Part shown: piece by piece, positions 5,333-58,339 of the stretch
Position numbering within the stretch: position 1 is the first letter of the stretch
Layout: each line of letters begins with the position of its first letter
Assembly (NCBI GenBank): GCA_021780105.1
Contig: JAJXZJ010000046.1
Location: 186,001-250,000, forward strand
Length of the DNA: 64,000 nt
Source of the DNA: a bacterium
GTDB taxonomy: Bacteria > Verrucomicrobiota > Verrucomicrobiia > Limisphaerales > J093
Reading direction: 5' to 3'
Position numbers and translations under genes: made by a program
Notes under the pieces: model-generated
Told to the model about the DNA's origin: nothing
Database searches by the model: none
Seen by the model: the letters and a program-made list of their open reading frames with translations, nothing else

Positions 5333-8300
5333 TCAAGGTTGGGCCGGCGAAACCAGCAGGTAAAAACGCGTGGCCGCCGTGGCCGGATCGGAGATGTCCT
5401 CCTCGGTGTTCGTGGTCGGCGCCGGCACGTCCACCAGTTTCTGCCAGGCACCGTCGGCGACCTGTTCACGGAACAGGACGCTGTAAGTGCGGCCGGCAAG
5501 GGCCTGGAAATGCAGGTGCGTGACGCCACCGATGAGTTCCGCGGCATCGAAGCGCAGATCGGTGAGCGGCGCGGGCGGGTTGTCGGCGCCGGCCGTGGGC
5601 GCGGCGGCCTGCCAGTTGGCCGGCTCGTCGCCGAAGGCGCTGCTGTCAATGCGCTGGAGCGAGAAGCCGGTGCCATCGGCGTTCGTGGGCCAGGGCGCCT
5701 GGTTCCGGTATTCCACCTGATCCACCAGCACATGGGGCACCTGGCCGGGCTGCGGGTCCGACGCGGTTTCCGGTTTGCCCGGTTCATAAAGCCCCACGCT
5801 TTCGCCTTCGTTTGCCAGGTTGCCGGTGTAAGGCCCCCCAATCGGCGTGGCGGCATCTACGTTGTATTTCGCGCAGAACAGGGCGAGCTGCACCGGCGAG
5901 GACGCCGGATCAAAGTTGACGACCAACGCGTAACCGCCCGCCGGCAACGTCGCGCCGGTGGGGAAGGTGAACGTGACGCCGTCGCCCAACTGCCAGGTGT
6001 TCGTGGGCGCGGCGGTGTCGAACAACGGCACCGGCCGGGTGGAAATGTTCCGCAGTTCGATGAACTCGTCGAGCGTGTTGTTGTTCGTGCCCAGCAGCGG
6101 CGGGTTGAACATCAGTTCGTTGATGACGACCGGCCCGACGACCGGCCCGGCATTCGGCGCGCCGAGCGTGGGGCGAAGTTGGGCGACGAAATGTTCCAGA
6201 CTGTCGCTGGTGACAGAGCGGCCAAAGGAAACGCCTTTGCGGGAGGCGCCAAATTTGAACCCGTGCGTGTAGCCGGTGATGTTCGTGCCGTTGCCGGAGA
6301 ACAGATGCGCGGAGTCGCCCAGCCGGCTGAGGCCGAAGCCGTTGGTGCCGGCGCCGAACTGCGCGGCAGTCAGGACGACGAAGCCGTTGGTCGGCACGAT
6401 GGTGTGGTCGGGGATGCGGTATTTGAGCGGCGTCTGGAAATCATCCGAGAGAAACCACCCGCCGATGTCCGCCGGCGTGTCCGTGGGATTGAACAATTCC
6501 ACCGAATCCTGCTGGCTGGTGTCGGGGTCGGCGAGGGCCTCGTTGACCAGCACGGTGGGGAAGGCTCGCGGCGGGGCGTCGGTGGCGCCGGGCGAGCCGT
6601 GGAGTTCGCCGCTGACGCGCCAGTTGGCGGCGCTGGACCAAGCGTCCGCCGGAGCGTTGACGTCCGTGGGCACAAGCGAAAAGCCAAGTCCATCGGTGAT
6701 GGGATACCAATTATTATTGAAGGTGAAATCCAGGATCGGCTCCTGCATCGGGCCGGTCAAAACGAGCTGGTCGCCGGCGTTGCTGAGGCTGCCGGTGTAT
6801 TCGCCGGCGATGTTGGTGGCGCCGGGGTGGCGGGAGAGAAAGGCCGCCGTATTCTTGACGACCAGCACGTAACCGCCGGCGGGCAGGTTTGTGACGCCGC
6901 TGGCGGCGGTGAAGGTGAATTGGATGCCGCCGGTGAGGCTGAAGCCGATCAGGTTCAGCGGCGTCGTGCCGGTGTTTTGCAATTCGAGGTAGGAGAAATT
7001 CTCCACGTCGTTGGTGTCGCCGGCCGGCGGCGGGGCGTCGTGATACATGATTTCCGTGATACGCAACGCCGGCGTGGTGAGCGTGTAGGTGGCGGCGACG
7101 GGGCCGGACCACGGACTGGAAAGCGGCGGGTTGGCGGCGGTGCCGGTCAAATTCCGGTGGCTCGGGTCGTAGGCGCGGGCGACGATCCGCTCGTTGCGGG
7201 TGACGTAGAACGGTCCGGTGTAGGGAATCGCGGCAGGTAAAATGCCGCCTCCGCGCTGGCGCGGATCCGAGCCGTCCGCCGTGTAGAAGATCGTGGCTTT
7301 CGCGGGACCGCTGAGCGACACCGACACCCACCCATTGATGGGACCGCCCGGCAGACTGATTGCCGGGGCGGCGACGAAGTTGGTGTCAATGAAGTCCACG
7401 CGGTTCGAGAGCCAGGATTTCATGTGGTCAATTTCCCACTGGTAACTGCCGCCGCGGGGAGTGGTGAACCCCGGCCAGCGGACGATTTCGCGCGCCTCCG
7501 CCTCGCGCAACTGGCCGGTCAGACCGTCCACCTCCGCGTATAAATTTGTCAGCGCAAACGGCCCGCGGCGCAACTCCTCCCAGCGGTCAATCCACTTTTG
7601 CCAGAAATCAATGTCGAGGAACAGCCGGTCCCACCACGGGTAATGGAACATGTCGGTGCCGTAGTCGGGCACTTGCGACTGCCAGACGCGCGGGTTGGTG
7701 TCGCGGCCGTCGGTGGAACCCAGCGAGCGGTCGAAGTCCCACAATGGGCCGAACGTCAGTTTGCCGTCGCGCGGTTTGTAGAAGAAGGTGCTGAGCCGGA
7801 GGGCGTCCACGTTGAACGCGAGCGTGTTCAGGATGTGGTGGTCAATCCACGAATCCACGTCCACGAATTGCGCGTAGCCGTTCACCGGGTCCGCGAAGTT
7901 CGGTGCTTCCAGCGTGGCGTAGAAGTTGTTCAGGTAAGCATTGATGTATTGCCATTGCGCCTGGCGCTGCGGCTGGGTCAGCTCGACGTATTTCGGATCC
8001 TCGGAGTTGATGCCCTGGGCGGCCGCGTAAATCTGCCCTTCGCCCGCCGGGGGCCGGTCAATACCCAGCAAATACCCGCCGGTGACGAGCGGCGGCGTGG
8101 CCTGCTCGGGCTGGAGCTTGTCAATGTTCACGCGGTCCGGGCTGATTTTGATCTTCTCCTCCAGCACATAAACACCGTTGTAGTTGGCCCGGTTGAGCGG
8201 GCCGCCGGCGACGTTGACAAACACCTCCACCAGGCGGACACGCGACGAATAGCGGCCGATGGTCCGGCTCAGGTCGTGCATGAACGGGTTGTGGATCAGC

Positions 8301-10522
8301 ACCGGCTCGAAGTTGTCGCACGCGTAAAGCACCCAGTCCGCGTCCGCCGGCAGACCCAGCACGGCTTGGCCCTGGTCGTCGCCGAATTCGTCCCACAGCG
8401 CGAGCCGGTAGTTGTGCTTGTCCTGGTAAAGCGTGCTGGAGCCGCGGATGCTGATGCCGGCGCGCACGCTCAACGTGGGCGGGTTCGTCAGCGAAGTCCG
8501 GCCCGCGCCCGGATCGAAGACGGCGAAGTTGGCGAACTGCCGCCGGCCGGAAGGCACCGCGCCGCCTTTGAAATTGTAAAGGACCAGCAGCGGCAGGTTG
8601 GAGGTGAAGTTGGTGACGTTGTCACTCAACGCCAGATAGGTTTCGCTGTGCGGCGCCCCCGGCAGCAGCCCCGGCACGAAGGCGCGGGCGCGGACCTGCA
8701 CGCTGTTGGAAATGACCAGCGCACTGGTGAACACCGGCGACAGCTCCGTCGGCAGATTCGTGCCCAGTTCGTAGTGAATGACCGCGTTGGTCGCCGGCGT
8801 GCTCAGCGCCAGGGCAAACGGCGTCACGAACGTGCTGCCGGTTTGCGAGAACTTCACATCCGGCGCAAACCCCGCTCCGCCGATGGCGTTGGGCGCGCCC
8901 GGCGTCGGCGTCGGGAAATACAGCAACAGGTTTGGGCTCGCGCGGTCCCGGCCGTAGGAAACGTCGGCCGATTGTGCCGGGTAGCTCAACGCGGAAACCA
9001 GATTGGTCTGCGCGTCCGACAAGGCGAGGTAGCCGCCCGCCTTCGGGAGCGTGAAATCCGTGTGCAGCGGCGCGGCGGCATTCGTGCGGTTTTTGCCCGA
9101 AGCAAACACGATCAGGTATTGATTCGGCAGCAGGCTGACCGCAGGAAACCGCCATTGCGCGGGCTGCGTGGCGGCGTCGCTGAAAAACCAGCCGTTCAGG
9201 TTCACGGTCGCGTCGCTGCCGTTGAACAATTCGATCCAGTCCGAGCTGTCGCCATCCTCATCGCGCAGCGTCTTTTTGTTGTCCGCCATGATTTCGTTGA
9301 TCATGACCGCGGTGACCGCCGTTTCGGGATTGAGCGTGTAATTCCAACCAGAACCGGTGAAGGCGTTGGGCGGGACGGCGAGGTCCTGGATGCCGTGGTT
9401 CGGACTCCACGCCACCTGCACGACGCCCGTTGCTGGCTGCGGAAATGCGAAGAGATAGTCCGTGCCGGTCACGGCGGTGAGGTTCGTCGCCGGGCGGCCG
9501 TTCACCAGCAAGTCGCCGGCGTCCACGCCGGTCACGTTCTTGTTGAACATCACTTCGATCTGCGTCAGCGCCGAAACCAGCGTGCCGGCGGGCGGCTCAA
9601 CGGTGGTCACCGCGGGAGGCGTGGTGTCGGGGACGCCGCCCGAGGCAATCGTGGTGATGACGACGTTGTCCAGATGCGTGTTTTCGTTGGCGCCGCCGGT
9701 GCGGCCGGCGACGACGAACCGGCCCGGTCCGGGGCTGAAATTGACGGCGGCGTGGTCAAGCAGCGTCGCGCCTTTCCAGACCACCGTCAGTTGCGAGTTG
9801 GTGCTCAACTCGACGTGCAGGTGCGCCCAGCAAAGGCCGGCCGGATTGCCGGTGTTCTGGCCGTCGTAGGGTCCGGTCTGAATGCTGTTGGCGTCGGTGC
9901 AGGCGTTTTGGCCCGCCGGGTCGGCAGCGTTGACGCCGTTTTCGTCCGGCATGGCGTATTCAAGAATCGTCTGGTTGTCCACGCGCACGATTACGCCCTC
10001 GATGTCGCTGCCGTCGGGGAGGGGGTTGCCCGCCCACGTGTCGAAGGCGATGGCAATGCCGGAGGCAACGCCGTCTTCCGCCTGGCCGGGCACGGCGAAG
10101 TCGTTGATTGGGTCGGTGCCGGCGAGCATATCCTGCACGACCATGTCACTGGTGTGGACGAAATTGATGCTGAAACCGTCGGCCGGCCGGCCGCTGGTCG
10201 GATTGCCCACGCGCAAGTCCGCGTCGAACGTGAATCCTTCGACGACCTGGTTCGGGTCCAGGTCCGGAAACATCACCGCTGCGTCCGTGCCGCTGACGGC
10301 ATCCAGCAGGGCGAGATAACCATCGTTGGCGCCGCCGCTGGCTCCGCCCGCGGAGCGCCAGGCGGGGTAGCCGGCCGAGCCAATCATCGCAATGCCCGCC
10401 TTGGCCGGGTCGGCGTTGAAATTAAACGTCGCTGAGCTGGCCAGACACGTGGCGGCTCCCAGCCCCAGCGCCATCAACCGGACCAACCAGACATCGGTTC
10501 CACGAATACGCATAGAAGTCAC
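5333..10522 (-). CDS. Large secreted CotH-kinase / lamin-tail-domain / chitobiase-like surface protein
   Basis: 1729 aa with signal peptide, concanavalin-like N-terminus, repeated lamin-tail segments (VMINEIMADN..DSSDWIELFN; VLVNEALADPDTSQQDSVELFNP; VVINELMFNPP..FIELRN) and a CotH core (VEVFVNVAGGPLNRANYNGVYVLEEKIKI..FGPLWDFDRSLGS). Confidence 0.85.
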   Translation of the reverse strand: MTSMRIRGTDVWLVRLMALGLGAATCLASSATFNFNADPAKAGIAMIGSAGYPAWRSAGGASGGANDGYLALLDAVSGTDAAVMFPDLDPNQVVEGFTFDADLRVGNPTSGRPADGFSINFVHTSDMVVQDMLAGTDPINDFAVPGQAEDGVASGIAIAFDTWAGNPLPDGSDIEGVIVRVDNQTILEYAMPDENGVNAADPAGQNACTDANSIQTGPYDGQNTGNPAGLCWAHLHVELSTNSQLTVVWKGATLLDHAAVNFSPGPGRFVVAGRTGGANENTHLDNVVITTIASGGVPDTTPPAVTTVEPPAGTLVSALTQIEVMFNKNVTGVDAGDLLVNGRPATNLTAVTGTDYLFAFPQPATGVVQVAWSPNHGIQDLAVPPNAFTGSGWNYTLNPETAVTAVMINEIMADNKKTLRDEDGDSSDWIELFNGSDATVNLNGWFFSDAATQPAQWRFPAVSLLPNQYLIVFASGKNRTNAAAPLHTDFTLPKAGGYLALSDAQTNLVSALSYPAQSADVSYGRDRASPNLLLYFPTPTPGAPNAIGGAGFAPDVKFSQTGSTFVTPFALALSTPATNAVIHYELGTNLPTELSPVFTSALVISNSVQVRARAFVPGLLPGAPHSETYLALSDNVTNFTSNLPLLVLYNFKGGAVPSGRRQFANFAVFDPGAGRTSLTNPPTLSVRAGISIRGSSTLYQDKHNYRLALWDEFGDDQGQAVLGLPADADWVLYACDNFEPVLIHNPFMHDLSRTIGRYSSRVRLVEVFVNVAGGPLNRANYNGVYVLEEKIKISPDRVNIDKLQPEQATPPLVTGGYLLGIDRPPAGEGQIYAAAQGINSEDPKYVELTQPQRQAQWQYINAYLNNFYATLEAPNFADPVNGYAQFVDVDSWIDHHILNTLAFNVDALRLSTFFYKPRDGKLTFGPLWDFDRSLGSTDGRDTNPRVWQSQVPDYGTDMFHYPWWDRLFLDIDFWQKWIDRWEELRRGPFALTNLYAEVDGLTGQLREAEAREIVRWPGFTTPRGGSYQWEIDHMKSWLSNRVDFIDTNFVAAPAISLPGGPINGWVSVSLSGPAKATIFYTADGSDPRQRGGGILPAAIPYTGPFYVTRNERIVARAYDPSHRNLTGTAANPPLSSPWSGPVAATYTLTTPALRITEIMYHDAPPPAGDTNDVENFSYLELQNTGTTPLNLIGFSLTGGIQFTFTAASGVTNLPAGGYVLVVKNTAAFLSRHPGATNIAGEYTGSLSNAGDQLVLTGPMQEPILDFTFNNNWYPITDGLGFSLVPTDVNAPADAWSSAANWRVSGELHGSPGATDAPPRAFPTVLVNEALADPDTSQQDSVELFNPTDTPADIGGWFLSDDFQTPLKYRIPDHTIVPTNGFVVLTAAQFGAGTNGFGLSRLGDSAHLFSGNGTNITGYTHGFKFGASRKGVSFGRSVTSDSLEHFVAQLRPTLGAPNAGPVVGPVVINELMFNPPLLGTNNNTLDEFIELRNISTRPVPLFDTAAPTNTWQLGDGVTFTFPTGATLPAGGYALVVNFDPASSPVQLALFCAKYNVDAATPIGGPYTGNLANEGESVGLYEPGKPETASDPQPGQVPHVLVDQVEYRNQAPWPTNADGTGFSLQRIDSSAFGDEPANWQAAAPTAGADNPPAPLTDLRFDAAELIGGVTHLHFQALAGRTYSVLFREQVADGAWQKLVDVPAPTTNTEEDISDPATAATRFYLLVSPAQP

Positions 10523-45324: not shown

Positions 45325-46170
45325 TCAGGCCGGGACAATCTGGGACATGGGCGTCGGGATTTCCTCGGCGGCCGCTTCCACCGGCGACGGCGGCGGCGGC
45401 GGCGCATCGGTTTGAACCGGTTTGCTCCCGATCAAATTCTCTTCGCCGATCAGTGCCACGCCATCCCCGTATTTCGCCGCCGAGGTGCGCTCCAGGTCAA
45501 ATCGCTGGACCAGCTCCCGGAACCAGTTCGGGAACCGGCCGGTGAACTTCAGCTCCAAAATCACCCCGGTGCCGAACGGCCGCACCGGATTGTCCTGCGC
45601 CAACTCCAATCCCGCGCCGAACTGGCGGGCCACGCACACCTCCCGGTCCATGGTGACGCGCACGGAGTTGTCCTGCGTGCTGACCCACGCCTCGCGCTGG
45701 TAGGCCACATGCGCCTTGGGCCGCGCCTGCAGGTCGAGCATCAACCGGCAGAAATTCTGCAGCGCCACCAGATGATCCGGCCGCGACGAGAGCAAATGCG
45801 CCGGCTCCGGCAGGTGCCCCGCCAGCAGCCAGTTGACGGCCGCGCGCCGCACGCCGGCCCGTTGCTTCAGGATGGCGTCGTTTTGCCGACGTTTGATTTC
45901 AAAGAAAACGGGCGAATTCGGACGCTCATCGTAGAAGCGCAGCCGCAACTTGAACCGGTTTTTGGACCCGTTGAACGTCTCGCGGAAGGTCCGCAAGTCG
46001 TCCGAGTCCAGATACAGACTGTGAATCGGATAGGACAACCCCGGCCGGCCCACGCCGTATTCGTCCAGTTCAAGGAACGATTGCACGAAGCCCCGCACCT
46101 CCAATGCGATGGCCTCGCGGACGCGGTATTTCAACTCAACTCGTTGTAGTTGAAGCTTGTCTGGTCCCAT
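45325..46170 (-). CDS. VTC domain (polyphosphate polymerase-like) protein
   Basis: RVELKYRVREAIALEVRGFV...YPIHSLYLDSDDLRTFRETFNGSKNRFKLRLRFYDERPNSPVFFEIKRRQNDAILKQR; ATG at 46170. Confidence 0.88.
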   Translation of the reverse strand: MGPDKLQLQRVELKYRVREAIALEVRGFVQSFLELDEYGVGRPGLSYPIHSLYLDSDDLRTFRETFNGSKNRFKLRLRFYDERPNSPVFFEIKRRQNDAILKQRAGVRRAAVNWLLAGHLPEPAHLLSSRPDHLVALQNFCRLMLDLQARPKAHVAYQREAWVSTQDNSVRVTMDREVCVARQFGAGLELAQDNPVRPFGTGVILELKFTGRFPNWFRELVQRFDLERTSAAKYGDGVALIGEENLIGSKPVQTDAPPPPPSPVEAAAEEIPTPMSQIVPA

Positions 46171-46335
46171 ACCGAACGCATTCGGTTTGTTGCTTGTCGT
46201 CACCAAATCGTCATGCAAGCGTTGCCGCAATGTCAAGCTCGCGACGGGCACACCACCGTGCTTTGGTGTTTCGAGTCACTGGTTTATTGAACTGAACACC
46301 GAAAAGAAAGCAATATTAATACCAATTCGCCTCCA

Positions 46336-47707: not shown

Positions 47708-49423
47708 TTATTTCGCCCGGAAGACGGCGATTTCTGAAAGCCCGATGTTCGGGCTGCCGGGCTTCGCGCCGGTGACGAGGAAGGCGACCCAGTTCACGGT
47801 CTTCGGCGGGAATTTCACTTCCAGTCCGCGCTTGGCATCGTCGGGCAGCGCGCCGGTTTTCAACGTCGTGCCGTCGCTGAAGACGAGCAGGCCGGCGGTG
47901 ACTTGATCCAGGAGGTTCGGCCGGTCGAAGAGCCAGATGCGGTCAATGCGCTGCGGCGTTTCCCACGTGAGCCGGAGCATGGCGGTGTCGCGCTCGCCGT
48001 TGCTGGCCCATTCGTGGCGGAGGTCGCCGGGAAAACCGTCCACCACGCCGTCCACGGCGCCCGCGGCGGCGTAATCCGGATGCACGGAACTGACCGTGAG
48101 CCGGGCGCGCGGCGCCATGTTGTCCGGCGAGCCGAGCGGATCGGCCGGCCGGCGGTCGTCCGGCGTCAGCAGCCGGATTTCCTGGAGACACATTCCGTAG
48201 CGGCTGCCGGGCGGGCGCGTCTCGAAGCGCACACCGTTCCAGCCCTGGCTGAAATTCGCGGCGTAGCACAGCCACAGCGTGCGGCCATCGGCGCCGATAA
48301 ACTTCGACGGCACGTTCACGAAGTAAGCCTGCTCGCCGAAATGCCGGAGGTAGGCGACGCGCTTCCACGGGCCGGTGATGCGGTCGGATTCGAGGAGGTA
48401 GGTGTTGAAGTAGGAAACCGTGTTGCCGCCGTCGGTGACGCACAGGAGGAATTTCTTCAGCGGCGCGTCGTAGGTCATCGTCACGCAACCCATGTTGTCG
48501 GGCCACGCAGCAACCGGCTGAATGCGACGGAAGTCGTGCGTCCAGACCGGTTCGCCTTGGGCGTCGTCGCCGGCGAAGAACTCGTATTGCGACGCGTCGT
48601 TCATGGCCGCGATGCCCGGTGTGACGCGGAGCAGATAGATTTGGTCGCCGGTGATCCAACTGTCGAAGCCGAACCGGCGGTTCGTGTTGTTCGAGGCGCC
48701 GTGCGCGACGAGGTAGGCCTTGCCGTCGGGCGAATGTTCGAGGTTCCGGCCGAAATCCACGAAATGCGGCGAACCGATCTTCACCGGCTCACCGTTGAGC
48801 GAGGTTTCTCCGAACAACGGTCGGGCCGGCGTGCAAGACGTCTGCGTCCAGGTCTTGCCGAAATCGGTGGACCAGCGGAAGCCGACGAACGGTCCGAGCC
48901 ACGGCCAGTTGTAATTCATGCCGTCGTGCGGCACGGAGCCGTCCGGTCCCAGGCAATACGTGCCGTAATACCACACGCCGTTGTAAACGAGACTGCCGCA
49001 CGGATACCGGCCGCGATACGGCGAAGGGTCGGACGCATAGACGGCCTGATTCGTCACGGTGAGATGGAGCGGGTCGTCGCCCAAAATCGTCGCAAAGCCG
49101 GTCGTGGCATTCGTGCCGGCGGAGGACGCGCCGAGGCCGTTGACCTCGCCGTCGGTCCACGGCGAGTAGAGGTTGCCGTCGGCCGCCCACGACGGATACC
49201 AGGTGTCCGCGTGAACGTATTCCGCGTGGCGGCCGGTGAAGCCGATGCCGGTCAGCGTGGTGGATTTGGGGAACGGACAACCGGCCGGCGCCTCGTCCGG
49301 CCAGACGTGAAACGGCACTGGTGGCGGCGCGTCAATCAACTCCTGTGTGGCGCCCAGCCCCGTGGCACAAACGGCCAGCAACGCGGCGAGAGTGAACAGC
49401 GCATTCATTTCCGTAATTTCCAT
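47708..49423 (-). CDS. Secreted DUF4185-like protein with C-terminal discoidin-like region
   Basis: LTGIGFTGRHAEYVHADTWYPSWAADGNLYSPWTDGEV...NLEHSPDGKAYLVAHG...LWLCYAANF; C-terminal PARLTVSSVHPDYAAAGAVDG-like segment. Confidence 0.65.
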   Translation of the reverse strand: MEITEMNALFTLAALLAVCATGLGATQELIDAPPPVPFHVWPDEAPAGCPFPKSTTLTGIGFTGRHAEYVHADTWYPSWAADGNLYSPWTDGEVNGLGASSAGTNATTGFATILGDDPLHLTVTNQAVYASDPSPYRGRYPCGSLVYNGVWYYGTYCLGPDGSVPHDGMNYNWPWLGPFVGFRWSTDFGKTWTQTSCTPARPLFGETSLNGEPVKIGSPHFVDFGRNLEHSPDGKAYLVAHGASNNTNRRFGFDSWITGDQIYLLRVTPGIAAMNDASQYEFFAGDDAQGEPVWTHDFRRIQPVAAWPDNMGCVTMTYDAPLKKFLLCVTDGGNTVSYFNTYLLESDRITGPWKRVAYLRHFGEQAYFVNVPSKFIGADGRTLWLCYAANFSQGWNGVRFETRPPGSRYGMCLQEIRLLTPDDRRPADPLGSPDNMAPRARLTVSSVHPDYAAAGAVDGVVDGFPGDLRHEWASNGERDTAMLRLTWETPQRIDRIWLFDRPNLLDQVTAGLLVFSDGTTLKTGALPDDAKRGLEVKFPPKTVNWVAFLVTGAKPGSPNIGLSEIAVFRAK

Positions 49424-49773: not shown

Positions 49774-51042
49774 ATGGCGCCAGTCATGGCCATGAATGTT
49801 GAATCTGATCTCGATCCCTGCCGCGCGAAACGAGACGGTGGCGCGGGAAGCCGTTGGCGCGGGTTGTGCGTGGCGTTGTCGCTGGTCGCGGTCAATCTGG
49901 TGTTCGGTCAGCCGGCGCTCTCGGCCGCAGCGTCAGCAGTGCCCGGCCTGTTCTACACGAATTTCCATTCCGCCGATCCGCTGTGGTCCATTCACGTCGT
50001 GCGGATTGACCGGACGATTCCCGGCGTGGAAATCCATTCCGTTCACGCGGGCAACCACGTCCTGGGCATGGCGACGCTGACGGCCCAGATCGAGCGCTTC
50101 GACCGCGCCCGCGGCACCCCGGTGGCGGCGGTGAACGGCGATTTTTATCAGCGGGACAGGGACTACGCCGGCGATCCGCGCGGGCTGCAAATCGTCGAGG
50201 GCGGGTTGCTGCATTCCCCGTCGGGCGGGGCCAGTGTCTGGATTGACGCGGCCGGTCAGCCCCAGACAGGCACGGTTGCCTCGCGGTTTCAAATCCTCTG
50301 GCCCGACGGCAAGGCCACGGCGTTCGGGCTGAACGGCCCGCGGGCCGCTGGCGGCGTGGAGCTTTACACGGCGGCCCTCGGGGCCTCGACACGCACGGCC
50401 GGCGGCCGGGAACTTATTTTGGAATTGCCGGAAGGCGGCGCGTGGCCGCCGTTGCGGATCGGCGTCACGAACACGGTCCGGGTGCGGGCGGTGCGGGCGG
50501 CCGGCGATACGCCGTTGACGCCCGACACCGTGGTGTTGTCCGTCGGGCCGGGCGCGATTTCGGCCGTTCCACCGGTGGCGGCGGGCGCGGTTTTGCGGAT
50601 TTCCACCGCGACGACGCCGGACTTGCGCGGGGCACAAACGGCAATCAGCGGCGGGCCGGTGCTGATGCATCGTGGCTGGCGCCAACGCATCACGCAACCG
50701 GCCGGGGAGTCCTACGAATTCAGTTCCATGCTCGAACGGCATCCGCGCACGGCGATCGGCTGGAATCGGGAGTATTATTTCCTCGTGGAGGTGGACGGCC
50801 GGCAGAAGAACCTGTCGGTCGGCATGACGCTGAACGAGTTGTCCAAGTTCCTGGCGAAACTGGGTTGCGAGGAGGCCATGAACCTCGATGGCGGCGGCTC
50901 GGCGACGCTCTGGTGCGAGGGGGCGGTGCGCAACCACCCGTGCGACGGAGGCGAGCGCGGCATTGCCAATGCGCTGATTGTCACCTGCCAACAGCCGGCC
51001 ACGGCTGCGACCTCCGGTGCGGGTGTCGGCTTAAATAATTGA
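49774..51042 (+). CDS. Phosphodiester glycosidase (NAGPA-domain) family protein, paralog 1
   Basis: GTPVAAVNGDFYQRDRDYAGDPRGLQIVEG...HPRTAIGWNREYYFLVEVDGRQ...GCEEAMNLDGGGSATLW. Confidence 0.88.
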   Translation: MAPVMAMNVESDLDPCRAKRDGGAGSRWRGLCVALSLVAVNLVFGQPALSAAASAVPGLFYTNFHSADPLWSIHVVRIDRTIPGVEIHSVHAGNHVLGMATLTAQIERFDRARGTPVAAVNGDFYQRDRDYAGDPRGLQIVEGGLLHSPSGGASVWIDAAGQPQTGTVASRFQILWPDGKATAFGLNGPRAAGGVELYTAALGASTRTAGGRELILELPEGGAWPPLRIGVTNTVRVRAVRAAGDTPLTPDTVVLSVGPGAISAVPPVAAGAVLRISTATTPDLRGAQTAISGGPVLMHRGWRQRITQPAGESYEFSSMLERHPRTAIGWNREYYFLVEVDGRQKNLSVGMTLNELSKFLAKLGCEEAMNLDGGGSATLWCEGAVRNHPCDGGERGIANALIVTCQQPATAATSGAGVGLNN

Positions 51043-51172
51043 CTCATAATTGGTTGGACAATGCAGCGGGATTAAATCGTCGGTAACCGGCAGTCCGAAT
51101 CAGCGGCATGAAACCTGCTTTTTCCAGTAGATTAGAATGGCGTGATTTGGCGTGCGGTAAAGTTATGACTCC

Positions 51173-52378
51173 ATGAACCTGGTCGTGGACGCAACGTGGC
51201 GACGGTTTCGTCGGCTGGCGGTCTTCTCCGCGGCCGCCGGGTTGTCGCTCGGGTTGCTGGGCGGGAAATTGACGGCGGGTTTCGCGGGCACCGAGACACC
51301 GTCGGCCGGCCGCCACGATCACGGCTTCTCCTACCTCCACGACACGGTGGCGGAGGTTCCGTGGTCCATTCACATTTTCAAGCTGGAACGCGCGAACCGC
51401 GATTTCGACTTCTGCACCACGCTGGGCAACGGCGCCACGCAGGGGCTGACGACGGTTTCCGAACAGGTCAAACACCTGCCGCCGTCGTTGGGCGAGCCGG
51501 TGGCGGCGGTGAACGGCGACTATTACAACAAGCACGAGCATTACCTCGGCGACCCGCGCGATCTCCAGATTTCCCAGGGCGAAGTCGTGAGCGCCCCGGC
51601 CGGCCACATGTGCTTCTGGATGGATGCCGCCGGCAATCCGCACATGACGAACGTGCTGTCGCGCTTCCGGGTGATCTGGCCGGACGGAGCCGCGACACCA
51701 TTCGGTCTGAACGAGGAGCGGACCAGCGACCAGGCGGTGCTTTACACGCCCGCCGTGGGAGACAGCACGCACACCCAGGGCGGCACGGAACTGGTGCTCG
51801 CCGAGGCGACGAATCAGTGGTGGCTGCCGCTGCGGGTCGGGCAGGTTTACCAGGCCCGCGTGGTGGAGGTTCGCGCCGGCGGCGACACCGCGTTGAAGCC
51901 GGGGACCATGGTGCTGTCCCTTGGGCCTGAATTGGAAGGGCACGTGCCAAAGGTCCAAACCGGCGACACGGTTCGCGTGATCACGGAAACAGTCCCGAAC
52001 CTGGCCGGAGTGAAAACCGCGGTGGGCGGCGGCCCCACCTTGGTGCGCGACGGCAAGGCAATGGAATGGGGCGGCATCCAGATGCGGCACCCGCGCACGG
52101 CGATCGGCTGGAACCGCGATTTTATTTTTCTCGTCGAAGTGGACGGCCGGCAAAGTCAACTGTCCATGGGCATGACATTTTCGGAACTGGCCGGCTACAT
52201 GCGCAAACTGGGTTGCGAGCAGGCCATGAACCTCGACGGCGGCGGTTCGTCCACCATGTGGGTGCTCGGCAACGTCATGAACAGCCCGTCCGAAGGCCAG
52301 GAACGGCCGGGAGCGAACGCCTTGGTCGTCGTGGACAAACGCAACAGCCTCCGGCTGCCGGTGCAAGTGCGGCGATGA
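51173..52378 (+). CDS. Phosphodiester glycosidase (NAGPA-domain) family protein, paralog 2
   Basis: EPVAAVNGDYYNKHEHYLGDPRDLQISQGE...HPRTAIGWNRDFIFLVEVDGRQ...GCEQAMNLDGGGSSTMW. Confidence 0.88.
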   Translation: MNLVVDATWRRFRRLAVFSAAAGLSLGLLGGKLTAGFAGTETPSAGRHDHGFSYLHDTVAEVPWSIHIFKLERANRDFDFCTTLGNGATQGLTTVSEQVKHLPPSLGEPVAAVNGDYYNKHEHYLGDPRDLQISQGEVVSAPAGHMCFWMDAAGNPHMTNVLSRFRVIWPDGAATPFGLNEERTSDQAVLYTPAVGDSTHTQGGTELVLAEATNQWWLPLRVGQVYQARVVEVRAGGDTALKPGTMVLSLGPELEGHVPKVQTGDTVRVITETVPNLAGVKTAVGGGPTLVRDGKAMEWGGIQMRHPRTAIGWNRDFIFLVEVDGRQSQLSMGMTFSELAGYMRKLGCEQAMNLDGGGSSTMWVLGNVMNSPSEGQERPGANALVVVDKRNSLRLPVQVRR

Positions 52379-52381
52379 CGC

Positions 52382-54013
52382 ATGACCGGGTTCTGGTGTT
52401 CAGCTCCGGTGGTTTGTCTCCGCGTCATGAGCTGCCTCGTCGTGGCCGGTGCCTGGCTGGCAACTGCGCTGGGGCAAGGCGCCGGCGGTGGGTCGCAACC
52501 GACGGCGACCCCTCCCTTGAAAGGCGAGGGTCTTTTCGCCGCCAATCCTATTCGCCGCCTCGCGATTGAAATCCCGCCGGAGGAAATGGCATCGCTGCGC
52601 CGGGATGCGCGCGAGTTTGTGCCGGCCACCGTGCGGGAGGACCAAACGGTTTGCCGCGAGGTGGCGGTCCACTTGAAAGGCTCGACCGGCAGCTTCCGCG
52701 GCCTCGACGACAAGCCCAGCCTGACGCTTGATTTTGCCCGGTTCCAGCGGGACCAACGATTTCACGGCCTGCGGCGGATTTACCTCAACAACTCCGTCGA
52801 GGACCCGGCCTGCGTCAACGAAATCATCGGGAGCGAACTGTTCCGCGCCGCTGGTGTGCCGGCGCCGCGCGTGACGCGTGTCGAGGTTACGTTGAACGGA
52901 CGCCGCCTGGGTCTTTACGTGCTGAAAGAAGGGTTCACCGAGGATTTCCTCGCCAGCGCTTTCCGCCGGGTGGAGGGAAACCTCTACGACACCGATTGGG
53001 GGCACGACGTGGACCAGCGCATGAAGCGCAACCTGGGTCGCGGGCCGCGGGATGAACAGTCCGATCTGGACGCCCTGGCCGCCGCTGCGCAGGAGCCGGA
53101 CCCGGAACGTCGCTGGCAGCGGCTGAGCGGCGTCTTGGACCTGGACCGATTTCTCAGTTTCATGGCCATGGAGGTGATGATCTGCCACCGGGACGGTTAT
53201 TGCCTGGCGCGGAATAATTTTCGCATTTACCACGATCCCGAAACCGGCCGCATGGTTTTTCTGCCGCACGGAATGGACCAGTTGCTGGGCAAGTCCGACC
53301 TGCCCTGGGAGCCGCACATGGCCGGCCTCGTGGCGCGGGCGGTCATGGAACTGCCGGAGGGACGCCAGCGGTATCGGGAACGTTTCACCGCGCTGTTCGG
53401 GCGCCTGTTCGATGTCGCGAGCCTGACCAACCGCGTGAACCAGCTTGTCGGCGATGTGCGTGCCAGCGTCAGCGTCAGTGAATTCAACGCCATCGCCGCG
53501 GAAGCCGCCGCCGTGTGCGATCGCCTGCGGCAACGCCACGCCTTCCTCGCGGACGAATTGCGCCGGCCCGAACCGGCACCGGTGGCGTTGCCCGCTGGCG
53601 TGGCCAAGCCCGGCAGTTGGTTCAAGGTGGATGACCCGTTGGACGGCCGGATGGATGTGGCGCGCGACGCTGACGGCCGGCAGTCGTTGCACATCAAGTC
53701 GGGCGCGACCACAGCCGCATCGTGGCGGGCGCGGGTGTTGCTGAATCCGGGGCGTTATCGCTTCGAGGGCAAGGCCAGGGTGGCGGCCGTCAGGCGTTTG
53801 CCGAACAGCCGGCACCAGGGAGCCGCGCTTCGCGTGGCCGGCGAAACCCGCGCCGACGCGGGCTTGGAGGGCGATGTGCCGTGGCGTCCGCTGAACTTCG
53901 ATTTCGAGATCCGCGCGGCCTCGACGTGGGTCGAATTGATCTGTGAACTGCGCGCCAGCGGCGGCGACGCCTGGTTTGATCTGGATTCGCTGCGTTTGGT
54001 GAAGATCCAGTGA
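52382..54013 (+). CDS. CotH kinase family protein
   Basis: VHLKGSTGSFRGLDDKPSLTLDF...FHGLRRIYLNNSVEDPACVNEIIGSELFRAAGVPAPRVTRVEVTLNGRRLGLYVLKEGFTEDFL...MVFLPHGMDQLLG. Confidence 0.9.
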   Translation: MTGFWCSAPVVCLRVMSCLVVAGAWLATALGQGAGGGSQPTATPPLKGEGLFAANPIRRLAIEIPPEEMASLRRDAREFVPATVREDQTVCREVAVHLKGSTGSFRGLDDKPSLTLDFARFQRDQRFHGLRRIYLNNSVEDPACVNEIIGSELFRAAGVPAPRVTRVEVTLNGRRLGLYVLKEGFTEDFLASAFRRVEGNLYDTDWGHDVDQRMKRNLGRGPRDEQSDLDALAAAAQEPDPERRWQRLSGVLDLDRFLSFMAMEVMICHRDGYCLARNNFRIYHDPETGRMVFLPHGMDQLLGKSDLPWEPHMAGLVARAVMELPEGRQRYRERFTALFGRLFDVASLTNRVNQLVGDVRASVSVSEFNAIAAEAAAVCDRLRQRHAFLADELRRPEPAPVALPAGVAKPGSWFKVDDPLDGRMDVARDADGRQSLHIKSGATTAASWRARVLLNPGRYRFEGKARVAAVRRLPNSRHQGAALRVAGETRADAGLEGDVPWRPLNFDFEIRAASTWVELICELRASGGDAWFDLDSLRLVKIQ

Positions 54014-54026
54014 TCACGTTGTCTGT

Positions 54027-54057
54027 CCACCGGCCGGTGGTGTCACGGGCCGTGACA
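54027..54057. promoter_or_regulatory. Two adjacent palindromes, candidate operator sites
   Basis: ccaccgg|ccggtgg (54027-54040) directly followed by tgtcacgg-g-ccgtgaca (54041-54057), ahead of an AT-rich stretch (gattatatcggattaatgaag). Confidence 0.4.
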
Positions 54058-54208
54058 TGGCGCAGTTCGTGCTGAGTTTTGATTATATCGGATTAATGAA
54101 GACTTTACTTCGCTGGAACCTGATTTGAAACTGGGCCAGCCGCCCCGACGGTGTGCTGCCGTGCTGTCTGCGGTTGGCCGGAACATCCCGGCGGAAATGA
54201 TCGCGAAC

Positions 54209-54871
54209 ATGAGACGAAGCAAACGAGCGCTGGCGTTCACGTTGATTGAGTTGCTGGTGGTGATTGCCATCATCGCCATTCTCGCCGGACTTTTGTTGCC
54301 CGCCCTGGCCAAGGCCAAGGCCAAGGCCAAAGGTATCGCCTGCCTCAACAACCTGCGGCAAATCGGCATCGGCTTCCGCCTGTGGTCCACGGACAACGGC
54401 GACAAATATCCGTGGAATCTCACCGTGACCAACGGCGGCAGCCTGGGCTCGGCGGATTGGACCGACAATTACCGCATTTGTTCCAATCAATTCGCCACGC
54501 CGCAAATCCTGCTTTGCCCCACCGATCTGACCCGGCGCGCGGCCACCAACTGGGCGTTCATGTTCGGCGACCAGAACATCAGCTATTTCATCAGCACCAA
54601 CGCGAGCGATGCCGTCACGCAGTCCATTCTCCTGGGGGACGACAACGTCACCGGCGGCGGGGGCGGCCTGGACCCCACCTGGACCGTTTTCCTGGGCACG
54701 TCCATTGACGCGGCCTGGGACCAGAAACGGCACGTCCGCGCCGGCTACCTGGCCCTGTCGGATGGCAGTGTGCGGCTCACGAAAACCCAGAGTCTGCGCG
54801 ATCAGATCAACGCCGAACTGGACGCCGGTATGACCAACGTCGTCTTCTCCAAGCCGCGGGGCATTTTCTGA
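54209..54871 (+). CDS. Type II secretion/pilin-like (G-type prepilin) protein
   Basis: [69 protein letters not shown]. Confidence 0.92.
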
Positions 54872-54920
54872 GCGCCATGAATTTCGCCGCCGAAACCGCC
54901 GGCCAACCACGCCAGATGCC

Positions 54921-55583
54921 ATGCGCCCGCGCCGAGTAACGAACGTCCTTGCGATGCTCGTCATCGTCGCGGCCTGCGCCGTCCTTTTCCTCTTGGTGGA
55001 ACCGTTGCCGCCGCGGATCAACGCCGGGGTGCCGTCCGCGGTTGGTGACGTTCTGGCCCGTGAAGCGCTGCAGCGGCTGAAACCCGGCGGCCGCTTGACG
55101 GTTATCACCCGCGACACCGCCGCGTTCAAACATCCCGAGACGGACATTCTGTTTCAAAGCTTCACCCGCGTCATCCGGAAGGGCGGGGCCAGCATCACCG
55201 CGGTGCAGGCACTGCAAGTGGATCCGTTGCGGCCAGTGGACGTCCCACCGGGCGATTTTTTTGAGTGGATTCGCAAATCGCCACCGGGAAGTGTCATCGT
55301 TTCGTTCATGGGACCACCGCTGCTGACGCCTGATCAGATGGCCCAGCTCAACACGGTCAATCCGGCGATCCTCGCGTTTTGTCCGGGCAGCCTGGCGCAG
55401 CGCATTGACCTCCGGAAGTTGTTCGCGGCGCATTTGCTGGAAGTGGCGGTCATCAGCCGCCCCATGCCGCGACCGCTGGCCGCCGGTGCAAAGGGGGCGG
55501 AAGGCTGGTTTGACGCCAATTACATCAAACTCACATCGGCGAATGTCGCCAACCGCGATGACGATGCGGACGCGTCCCGTTAA
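54921..55583 (+). CDS. Hypothetical membrane-anchored protein
   Basis: N-terminal TM (VLAMLVIVAACAVLFLLV) followed by soluble domain LAREALQRLKPGGRLTVITRDTAAFKHPETDILFQSF; co-directional with flanking pilin-like genes. Confidence 0.65.
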   Translation: MRPRRVTNVLAMLVIVAACAVLFLLVEPLPPRINAGVPSAVGDVLAREALQRLKPGGRLTVITRDTAAFKHPETDILFQSFTRVIRKGGASITAVQALQVDPLRPVDVPPGDFFEWIRKSPPGSVIVSFMGPPLLTPDQMAQLNTVNPAILAFCPGSLAQRIDLRKLFAAHLLEVAVISRPMPRPLAAGAKGAEGWFDANYIKLTSANVANRDDDADASR

Positions 55584-55593
55584 CCTTGGCCTG

Positions 55594-56298
55594 ATGCAAC
55601 GTCAATCCGCCATCCAGTCTGCCGCCTTGCGGGGGCGCCTGGTGGCGTTCACTCTGACGGACCTTTTGGTGGGGCTGGCGGCGCTGGCGGTGGTGGTGGC
55701 CGCGGTGATGCCGCCGGTGGTGGCCGCGCGGCGGAAAGCGCAACTGGCCCGTTGCACCGCCAATCTCGGGCAGATTGACCAGGCGGTGCTGGCGTTTTCC
55801 CACGACAACGGCGGCACACTGCCGGCGCCAGTGGCCGGCCAGAAGGGCGACCTCTGGTGGTGGTATAAGGAGCAGGTCAAGCCCTATGCGGGGCTGAAGG
55901 GCCCGTCTTCGACCAACGACGCCGTGTTCGCTTGTCCGAATGACCGCGGTTACTCCGACCCGCGGCCGTTTCATGACAGCGCCCGGTTTGACTACAACAG
56001 CTACGTTTTCAATGGCGTCTTCCTGCCGGGAACGCCCAACATCGCCGGCTGGCCGCTCACAGCCGTGAAACAACCTCAGCGCACGCTTCTGGTCATGGAA
56101 TGGACCGCCCACGCGCCGCTTTCCTGGCACCACAGCCGGACCGGCCGGAACAACCTGCCGTTCTATTGCGATGCCCAAAGCGTGGTCGGCTTCGTGGACG
56201 GCCACGTCAGCTTCACCAAAATTTACTACGATGGCTACAACGCCGCCTTCACCCAGGATCCCATTGCCGGTTATGACTATCAATACAGCGGAAACTAG
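55594..56298 (+). CDS. Divergent prepilin-like protein (DUF1559/H-X9-DG-like)
   Basis: VAFTLTDLLVGLAALAVVVAAVMPPVVAARRKAQLARCTANLGQIDQAVLAFSHDNGGTLP...VVGFVDGHVSFTKIYYDG; ATG at 55594. Confidence 0.82.
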   Translation: MQRQSAIQSAALRGRLVAFTLTDLLVGLAALAVVVAAVMPPVVAARRKAQLARCTANLGQIDQAVLAFSHDNGGTLPAPVAGQKGDLWWWYKEQVKPYAGLKGPSSTNDAVFACPNDRGYSDPRPFHDSARFDYNSYVFNGVFLPGTPNIAGWPLTAVKQPQRTLLVMEWTAHAPLSWHHSRTGRNNLPFYCDAQSVVGFVDGHVSFTKIYYDGYNAAFTQDPIAGYDYQYSGN

Positions 56299-58339
56299 CC
56301 GTGTCGTCGCCTTGCCGCCCGCCGTCCGCCGTCCCGGCAGCAGGCGGCTCGCGCCGGCAGTTGTTGCGTGGACGAAAGGCTGGTTGCTGCTGGCCGCGCT
56401 CGCGTGGGGCTGCCTTGCGGCGGCCGCCGGCGCGGTTCCGGGTCCGTGGGAGCCGATTTTCAAGGGCGTTGATCGCGCGTCCGGCACCAATACTCCGGGC
56501 ATTGCCGGCAACTTTCCCCGCCGGCAGGTCGTGCGTTGTGTCCGGGTGGACCTGACGGATCCGGACATTCAACTTTTTGCGACGCCCAAGGCTGCCAGCT
56601 ACGGCCTCGAATCGCGCGAGACGCTGAGCCTGACGGTGCCGGACTTTCTGAAACGGAACCAGCTCCAGGTGGCTTGCGACGCGAATTATTACAACGCCAG
56701 CCCCGGCGGCGCGGATCCGACCAGTGAAGGCGTGCCGTGCGATGTGTTCGGCCTGGAGATTTCCAACGGGACGGTCGTTTCGCCGCAGACGACGGCCGAC
56801 ATTGGCGGCGATCCGCGCTTTGCGGCCTTGCTCTTCACGACCAACAACCAGCCCAGCTTCGTCTTTGTGAATCGTCCGCCCGGCACCAATACGGCCGGCA
56901 TCTACACGGCCATCACCGGCTATTACCCGATCGTCTCCAACGGCGTAAACATCGGGTCGGCCACGATCAACGCTTACCCCGACAGTTGGATTCACCAGGC
57001 GCAGCCGCGCACGGCGTTCGGCGTCACGCAGGACAATCGCTATCTGCTCATCATGACGATTGACGGCCGGCAATCCGGTTACAGCGACGGCGCCCTGGAC
57101 TCGGAAACGGCCTATTGGATGTTGCAGTTTGGCGCCTGGAACGCCATCAACATGGACGGTGGCGGCTCCACGTCGCTTTACGTGGCCGACAGCACCGGCA
57201 ATCCTGTCGCCGTGGATCACTCCAGTTATCTGGCGGCTTACGGACACGAGCGCTACGTCGGCTCCCATTTCGGAGTCTGGGCCAGGCCGCTGCCCGGCTT
57301 CATCAACGACGTGACCGCGATTCCCGATGACACCGCCGTCACGATCACCTGGACCACGACGTCTCCCGCCACGACGCAGGTGGCCTATGGATTGACCACG
57401 GACCTGGGCCTTTCCACGCCGCTGCAAACGAGCCCAACAACGAATCATGCCGTGGCGCTGACCAACCTCACCCCGGCGACGGATTATTATTTCAACGTCA
57501 TTTCGAGCCAGGGCGCTGAACAATACACCTCGTCGAACTTCGTTTTTACGACGACCAACTATGTTGATGTGAGCCTGCTCTTCGACATCACCAACACCTG
57601 GACCTACACGACCGCCAACCTCGATGGCGTGAACTGGACGGCCCGAAATTACGATGACTCGGGCTGGCTCGGTTCCGGGCCGGGGTTGCTCTGGGTGGAT
57701 GTGCGTTCCACCGGGCCGAATCCGGACGTGGGGCCGAAGAACACGCAGATGCCGGCGGATCCCAACAACAACGGCTTTCCTTACGTCACCTATTACTTCC
57801 GCACGCACTTCGCCTTCACGAACAATCTGGCGGGTGTGGCGCTGACGCTGTCCAACTACGTGGACGATGGCGCGGTCTTTTATCTGAACGGCGCCGAGAT
57901 TTACCGGTTGCGGATGGATGCGGCGCCGGCGGTCATCACCCACACCACCCTGTCCAGCGACTATCCGTGCCCCGACGACCTCAACAATTATGGGAACGCG
58001 GTGTGTCCCGACGTGTTCAGCCTCAACGGCGACCTGGCGACAAACCTGGTGGCCGGCGACAACGTCCTGGCCGTCGAAGTGCATAATTACAACGCGCTCA
58101 GTCCGGACATCACTTTCGGCAGCGCGCTCTTCATCAACGAGCCGCTGGACGCGAGCCCGGAGTTGAGCCTGTCAGCCGTGTCGGGCCAGCTCACGCTGAA
58201 CTGGAGCCGCGGCGGATTTTATCTACAGAGCGCCCCGTCGCCCGCAGGCCCGTGGGTCGACGTGCCGGGACCGGTCGTGATCGGCCCCTTCACCGTGTCC
58301 ACGGCGGAAGCGGCGCAATATTACCGGCTGCGACGTTGA
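56273..58339 (+). CDS. Phosphodiester glycosidase (NAGPA-domain) protein, paralog 3, with FnIII and galactose-binding-like C-terminus
   Basis: LQVACDANYYNASPGGADPTSEGVPCDVFGLEISNG...QPRTAFGVTQDNRYLLIMTIDGRQ...NAINMDGGGSTSLY; FnIII-like segment; ATG at 56273 overlaps the upstream gene by 26 nt. Confidence 0.85.
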   Translation: MTINTAETSRVVALPPAVRRPGSRRLAPAVVAWTKGWLLLAALAWGCLAAAAGAVPGPWEPIFKGVDRASGTNTPGIAGNFPRRQVVRCVRVDLTDPDIQLFATPKAASYGLESRETLSLTVPDFLKRNQLQVACDANYYNASPGGADPTSEGVPCDVFGLEISNGTVVSPQTTADIGGDPRFAALLFTTNNQPSFVFVNRPPGTNTAGIYTAITGYYPIVSNGVNIGSATINAYPDSWIHQAQPRTAFGVTQDNRYLLIMTIDGRQSGYSDGALDSETAYWMLQFGAWNAINMDGGGSTSLYVADSTGNPVAVDHSSYLAAYGHERYVGSHFGVWARPLPGFINDVTAIPDDTAVTITWTTTSPATTQVAYGLTTDLGLSTPLQTSPTTNHAVALTNLTPATDYYFNVISSQGAEQYTSSNFVFTTTNYVDVSLLFDITNTWTYTTANLDGVNWTARNYDDSGWLGSGPGLLWVDVRSTGPNPDVGPKNTQMPADPNNNGFPYVTYYFRTHFAFTNNLAGVALTLSNYVDDGAVFYLNGAEIYRLRMDAAPAVITHTTLSSDYPCPDDLNNYGNAVCPDVFSLNGDLATNLVAGDNVLAVEVHNYNALSPDITFGSALFINEPLDASPELSLSAVSGQLTLNWSRGGFYLQSAPSPAGPWVDVPGPVVIGPFTVSTAEAAQYYRLRR

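Follow-up and report, generated by a model that had tools for sequence, protein, structure and literature searches.

The stretch of DNA analysed here (the window, 64,000 nt) comes from contig JAJXZJ010000046.1 of a 4.55 Mb, 78-contig genome (assembly GCA_021780105.1) from a bacterium of the Limisphaerales, phylum Verrucomicrobiota. Genes were called from six-frame open reading frames (ORFs) and codon usage, and domains were assigned with Pfam and NCBIfam. Seven co-directional plus-strand genes occupy positions 49774-58339, as had been proposed in an original prediction made by a model from the sequence letters. They encode, in order, NAGPA1, NAGPA2, a CotH-type kinase, Pil1, MemX, Pil2 and NAGPA3, and constitute a conserved, operon-like cassette in Verrucomicrobiota, mainly Limisphaerales/Pedosphaerales. 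Because the block is kept together in many Verrucomicrobia, we regard it as a real but uncharacterised surface system. Each product has an N-terminal hydrophobic segment and no second one, which makes export or membrane anchoring probable for the whole set.

Phosphodiester glycosidase-family proteins

NAGPA1 (49774..51042, plus strand, starting at either 49774 or 49870) is an exported protein of the phosphodiester glycosidase family and the first member of a tandem pair. Its paralogue NAGPA2 (51173..52378, plus strand) follows after 130 nt as the second member. NAGPA3 (56273..58339, plus strand), the last gene of the cassette, joins a NAGPA domain to an FN3 domain of the Pur_ac_phosph_N type (Pfam E 1.5e-7) and to C-terminal surface-type domains. 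Its most likely start is the ATG at 56273, which gives a 26 nt overlap with Pil2; an identical overlap is present in L139, L140 and L144. All three are genuine NAGPA-domain proteins rather than carriers of unrelated domains, with matches to PF09992 at E 1.1e-33, 1.3e-37 and 2.2e-22 for NAGPA1, NAGPA2 and NAGPA3, respectively. Their scores of 117, 130 and 81 bits all exceed the cut-off of 25 bits. The genome has no other NAGPA genes, and this, together with the gene order shared across species, indicates more than a chance grouping.

The N, RTA, DGR and DGGGS signature residues are conserved in NAGPA1 and NAGPA2, and in the latter R308, D324-G325-R326, L354-D355-G356-G357 and S359 are invariant across 27 homologues. 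The AlphaFold2 (AF2) model of NAGPA2 (pLDDT 87.6) has the fold of the solved NAGPA structures, matching 5h3k, 6ozd, 3ohg and vertebrate NAGPA with Foldseek E values of 3e-20 to 1e-8. The motifs that the original prediction had described as common to the three proteins were only partly so: PRTA.G and N(L/M)DGGGS occur in all of them, but NGDYY/NGDFY is absent from NAGPA3, which reads CDANYYN instead. This first motif (ACDANYYN, at about residue 99-106 of the 56384 reading) has Asp in the window protein at a position where all 15 relatives compared have Asn, and the window NAGPA3 may therefore be altered in activity. In a maximum-likelihood tree, the first-of-pair and second-of-pair NAGPA genes were fully separated by a branch with 100/100 support, across which the window NAGPA1 grouped with the first-of-pair genes. 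This indicates one old duplication, after which the order of the pair was retained.

NAGPA1 and NAGPA2 have their fold and the motifs NGD/NGG, RTA, DGR and LDGGGS in common with the human/vertebrate uncovering enzyme NAGPA and with DUF2233 proteins (3ohg; 6ozd, BPSS2145; 5h3k, Slr0280), whereas NAGPA3 retains the later motifs and is fused to its FN3 and surface domains. Unlike the uncovering enzyme, the cassette proteins are bacterial, include tandem pairs whose motifs are separated by an insert, and have no phosphotransferase partner in the cassette. A further point of comparison is provided by the ShfP-type calcineurin-like surface phosphoesterases, extracellular phosphoester hydrolases of which some are fused to NAGPA and to FN3 of the same Pur_ac_phosph_N type as in NAGPA3 (PMC11188070). 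However, NAGPA3 lacks a calcineurin domain, and the pilin context is new.

CotH-type kinase

Only 3 nt separate NAGPA2 from the gene for the CotH-type kinase (52382..54013, plus strand). As proposed, the product is a CotH-kinase protein (PF08757, Pfam E 8.8e-28), and it aligns with Bacillus CotH (5jd9) at E 1e-19. Its Asp pair, D271 and D299, is invariant among 16 homologues. Both its aligned position and its spacing equate it with D228 and D251 of BsCotH, an enzyme that is inactivated when these residues are lost (PMC7821199). The C-terminus (about residues 410-543) forms a carbohydrate-binding-like domain with a weak match to the endoglucanase 8ag9 (E 0.005). The CotH domain and the Asp pair are thus shared with the spore-coat kinase of Bacillus (5jd9/5jda), from which the cassette protein differs in its export-type N-terminus, its C-terminal domain and the absence of a CotB/CotG-type substrate from the cassette. 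CotH domains are found at nine other places in the genome, two of them sharing one frame.

Pilin-like proteins and MemX

After a gap of 183 nt, the second half of the cassette begins with Pil1 (54197..54871, plus strand; ORF open from 54125), a canonical class III pseudopilin (A/FTLIE). It matches the Pfam N_methyl pilin motif (E 1.9e-6), and E5 of its prepilin N-terminus is retained in all 32 orthologues that have a readable N-terminus. Pil2 (plus strand, probably 55594..56298) is an atypical pseudopilin in which Asp replaces Glu at position 5. Its N-terminus is pilin-like, but it has no Pfam match and matches GspG only weakly (NCBIfam E 0.001). Among 23 readable orthologues, position 5 is D in 19, S in two, N in one and E in one, and the C-terminal domain is strongly conserved. 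The non-Glu residue recalls the tip pseudopilin GspK and suggests that Pil2 is a minor or tip-type subunit. Thus the claim of two pilin-like proteins holds, but their description as DUF1559-type does not. An H-X9-DG-like motif can be seen by eye near the C-terminus of Pil1 only; neither protein matched a DUF1559 or H-X9-DG model in Pfam or NCBIfam, the latter contributing merely generic pilin matches in the cassette, and the DUF1559 identity was rejected.

Pil1 shares its prepilin N-terminus with the pseudopilins of type II secretion systems (T2SS) and type IV pili (GspG, GspK), whereas the C-terminal domain of Pil2 is a family of its own. The core machinery of these systems is absent from the cassette; several GspF-type proteins are encoded outside it in the window genome, and in one lineage (L157) genes for the T2SS core proteins GspE, GspF, GspG and GspH lie directly downstream.

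MemX (54921..55583, plus strand), located 49 nt after Pil1 and 10 nt before Pil2, corresponds to the membrane-anchored protein noted in the original prediction, and indeed has a single transmembrane (TM) helix and no family in Pfam or NCBIfam. Its AF2 model (pLDDT 91.7) consists of this helix and a Rossmann-like lobe of the type-I periplasmic-sugar-binding kind, which matches periplasmic sugar-binding proteins with a Foldseek E value of 4e-5 and a TMq of up to 0.49. The match is partial, and at 220 aa MemX does not have the two-lobed fold of a periplasmic binding protein. Distant homologues of MemX (L094-L113) adjoin a larger pilin, without NAGPA3, in 15 of the 20 loci fetched; pilin-MemX therefore looks like a general pair that was recruited into the cassette. 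Such pilin-partner pairs of a MemX homologue and a larger pilin are widespread and uncharacterised in this order of bacteria.

Conservation and modular structure

A neighbourhood limited to one genome would have refuted the original prediction, and this was clearly not what was found. A scan with the Pil2 alignment, covering species genomes of bacteria and archaea (about 85,000), recovered 50 loci, all titled Verrucomicrobiota or unclassified bacterium, several of them Limisphaerales or Pedosphaera. The exact order NAGPA-NAGPA-CotH-Pil1-MemX-Pil2-NAGPA3 was present in 14 of these 50 loci. Of the 47 in which the Pil2 frame is intact, 37 have an uninterrupted Pil1-MemX-Pil2-NAGPA3 block; 33 loci have NAGPA1/2 or CotH directly joined. 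Some loci are closely related to each other, so the independent cases are fewer than these counts. Four cassette-bearing loci (L151, L159, L175 and L176) are titled Akkermansia muciniphila and look like mislabelled Verrucomicrobia metagenome-assembled genomes.

In 117 relatives examined, NAGPA1/2-type proteins (E < 1e-60) were detected in 30 and MemX orthologues (E < 1e-38) in 19, while full-length orthologues of NAGPA3 occur in about 20. All 19 strong MemX orthologues have a full-length or near-full NAGPA3 gene on the same strand about 0.9 kb downstream. The NAGPA1/2 type is rare outside the order, with two additional matches in 289 genomes of the phylum, and a wide phylum spread was accordingly rejected.

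Comparison of the loci divides the cassette into module A (NAGPA1-NAGPA2-CotH) and module B (Pil1-MemX-Pil2-NAGPA3). Module A is also carried by 18 of the 19 genomes with module B (Fisher p 2e-12 when genomes are counted and 4e-6 when they are collapsed by family). Their relative placement varies: the modules are divergent in G013 and G010, located apart in G012, G019, G021, G053, G024 and G109, and adjacent in differing arrangements in L059, L054, L118, L126 and L168, while in G047 NAGPA2 has been relocated to the end. Within module B, 13 of 35 loci show a 4 bp overlap of MemX with Pil2, and the pairwise divergences of Pil1, MemX, Pil2 and NAGPA3 are correlated with each other (r 0.53-0.78). 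The divergence of CotH shows a lower correlation with the module B genes (r 0.18-0.56).

Proposed function and alternative explanations

The gene order, the two modules, the export-type N-termini, the NAGPA fold and residues and the CotH Asp pair are all observed. On this basis we tentatively read the cassette, at a little short of even chances, as an exported system, linked to pseudopilins, that would hydrolyse sugar-1-phosphodiester bonds, with CotH phosphorylating an exported partner. This reading draws on the conserved order and the co-occurrence of the modules, the gene overlaps and correlated divergence in module B, the retained order of the NAGPA1/2 duplication, the T2SS genes beside L157 and the MemX fold, and also on the PstS-like and GH20 neighbours and the alginate-linked pseudopilins described below. 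Pil1 as the major-type subunit (E5) and Pil2 as a minor or tip-type one (D5) would make up a short fibre, powered by one of the type II secretion or type IV pilus machines of the cell, and MemX could serve as its inner-membrane-anchored partner bearing a sugar-binding-like lobe. NAGPA1-3 would be delivered to the surface or periplasm, where they may cleave the glycosyl-phosphodiesters of a glycan on the cell surface or in the environment. The putative role of CotH would be to adjust assembly or attachment by phosphorylating an exported partner with Ser/Thr residues, and not to supply NAGPA with a substrate. A bolder version, which we think rather unlikely, is that a dedicated, CotH-regulated pseudopilin fibre carries or delivers the three phosphodiester glycosidases as an undescribed class of surface machine by which Verrucomicrobiota remodel or harvest phosphate-linked glycans; MemX would then be the first member of a new family of pilin partners.

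Several observations weigh against an integrated, pilin-linked hydrolytic system. The likeness of the MemX model to sugar-binding proteins is at the level of fold only, the divergence of CotH is weakly correlated with that of the pilins (r 0.18-0.30), and T2SS adjacency is confined to the single lineage. A terminator-like hairpin lies within the 183 nt gap between CotH and Pil1, and although such hairpins were no commoner there than in shuffled sequences, gap and hairpin together make two transcripts possible; scans of the locus found no promoter, and no terminator better than in shuffles. Where a kinase in the periplasm would obtain ATP is not known, and neither biochemical data on bacterial NAGPA proteins of this subfamily nor a substrate came to light. 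The flanking genes are mostly housekeeping and variable, so we take the cassette itself to be the unit, and flanking metabolic genes were rejected as a conserved clue.

Of the competing explanations, nutrient scavenging is a possibility that we rate as somewhat unlikely. The NAGPA enzymes would release sugar and phosphate from exogenous phosphodiester glycans (phosphomannans, teichoic-acid-like polymers or phosphoglycans), while the pilins and MemX capture the substrate. Pseudopilins have been linked to polysaccharide use in this phylum, as a cultured verrucomicrobion increases a pseudopilin on alginate and has pulG-like pseudopilins within its alginate clusters (PMC13274419). The MemX fold fits such a role, as does the presence of a PstS-like gene downstream of NAGPA3 in L117 and L135, of its homologue in L140, and of a GH20 gene upstream of the cassette in L140. 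Furthermore, a search of the genome gave no phosphotransferase of the CDP-glycerol type; a separate Stealth search had no positive control and so decides nothing. These same three points (transferase, fold and neighbours) lead us to favour external glycans slightly as the substrate. However, PstS/GH20-type genes are linked to few loci, the cassette lacks a conserved set of transporters or glycoside hydrolases, and scavenging leaves the kinase without explanation.

The original prediction instead envisaged that a phosphodiester-linked modification of pilin-like or lamin-tail proteins is built, edited or removed. In such a scheme, CotH and a further phosphotransferase would decorate pilins or other surface proteins, and NAGPA would trim or uncover the product in the manner of the mannose-6-phosphate uncovering enzyme. 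The sharing of one operon-like unit by CotH and NAGPA, both with intact signature residues, is consistent with this, as are the additional CotH genes that follow the cassette in L117, L135 and L140 and the CotH gene with a lamin tail domain (LTD) beside L059 and L126. Yet CotH produces phosphomonoesters, on which NAGPA enzymes are not, to our knowledge, known to act, so the kinase product is chemically unlike the NAGPA substrate. The cassette has no conserved phosphotransferase and the genome search gave none of the CDP-glycerol type, so a conserved phosphodiester-making partner was rejected; the building or editing of a phosphodiester modification is thus unsupported, and we judge it quite improbable. 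Less probable again is that the two modules, a NAGPA/CotH surface-enzyme unit and a pilin-MemX-NAGPA3 unit, are neighbours through shared inheritance only and have no joint function. Their separation in six genomes, their inversion in G013 and the weak tracking of the pilins by CotH would agree with independence, but it is at odds with the strong co-occurrence and with the recurrence of adjacency in different arrangements.

The enzyme and pilin families of the cassette are all known, with the exception of MemX, but the open-access literature searched seems to contain no description of their conserved combination, in agreement with the original prediction, and no paper in it mentioned phosphodiester glycosidases together with CotH. 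Although common, NAGPA-domain proteins of bacteria and exported CotH kinases are almost uncharacterised. Pseudopilins are also very abundant in Verrucomicrobia, one isolate having 67 pulG-like homologues (PMC13274419). The cassette therefore offers a testable entry to them, with Pil1 and Pil2 as candidate CotH substrates, a candidate function for bacterial NAGPA proteins and a defined Pil1-MemX pair.

Genomic surroundings

Consecutive minus-strand genes for a VTC polyphosphate-polymerase domain (45325-46251), DUF4956, HlyD-like and amidase_3 proteins lie near the locus (window 45325-43531). VTC adjoins CotH elsewhere in the genome (C71) and in relatives, as in VTC-DUF4956-CotH clusters. However, VTC is present in 90 of the 117 relatives and was not found beside the NAGPA cassette or on cassette contigs, so VTC/DUF4956 was rejected as part of the system and is regarded as an incidental neighbour here.

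The suggested link to lamin-tail proteins was not supported either, since these are occasional neighbours (CotH with LTD in the two loci above) and were rejected as conserved members; none lies inside the locus. The window does contain, 39 kb away, a 1713 aa minus-strand protein (5333-10474) that combines four lamin tail domains with a CotH kinase domain and chitobiase-type C-terminal domains. Directly upstream of the cassette, and divergent from it, is a minus-strand gene (47708-49423) for a 571 aa protein with DUF7402 and a weak match to DUF4185.

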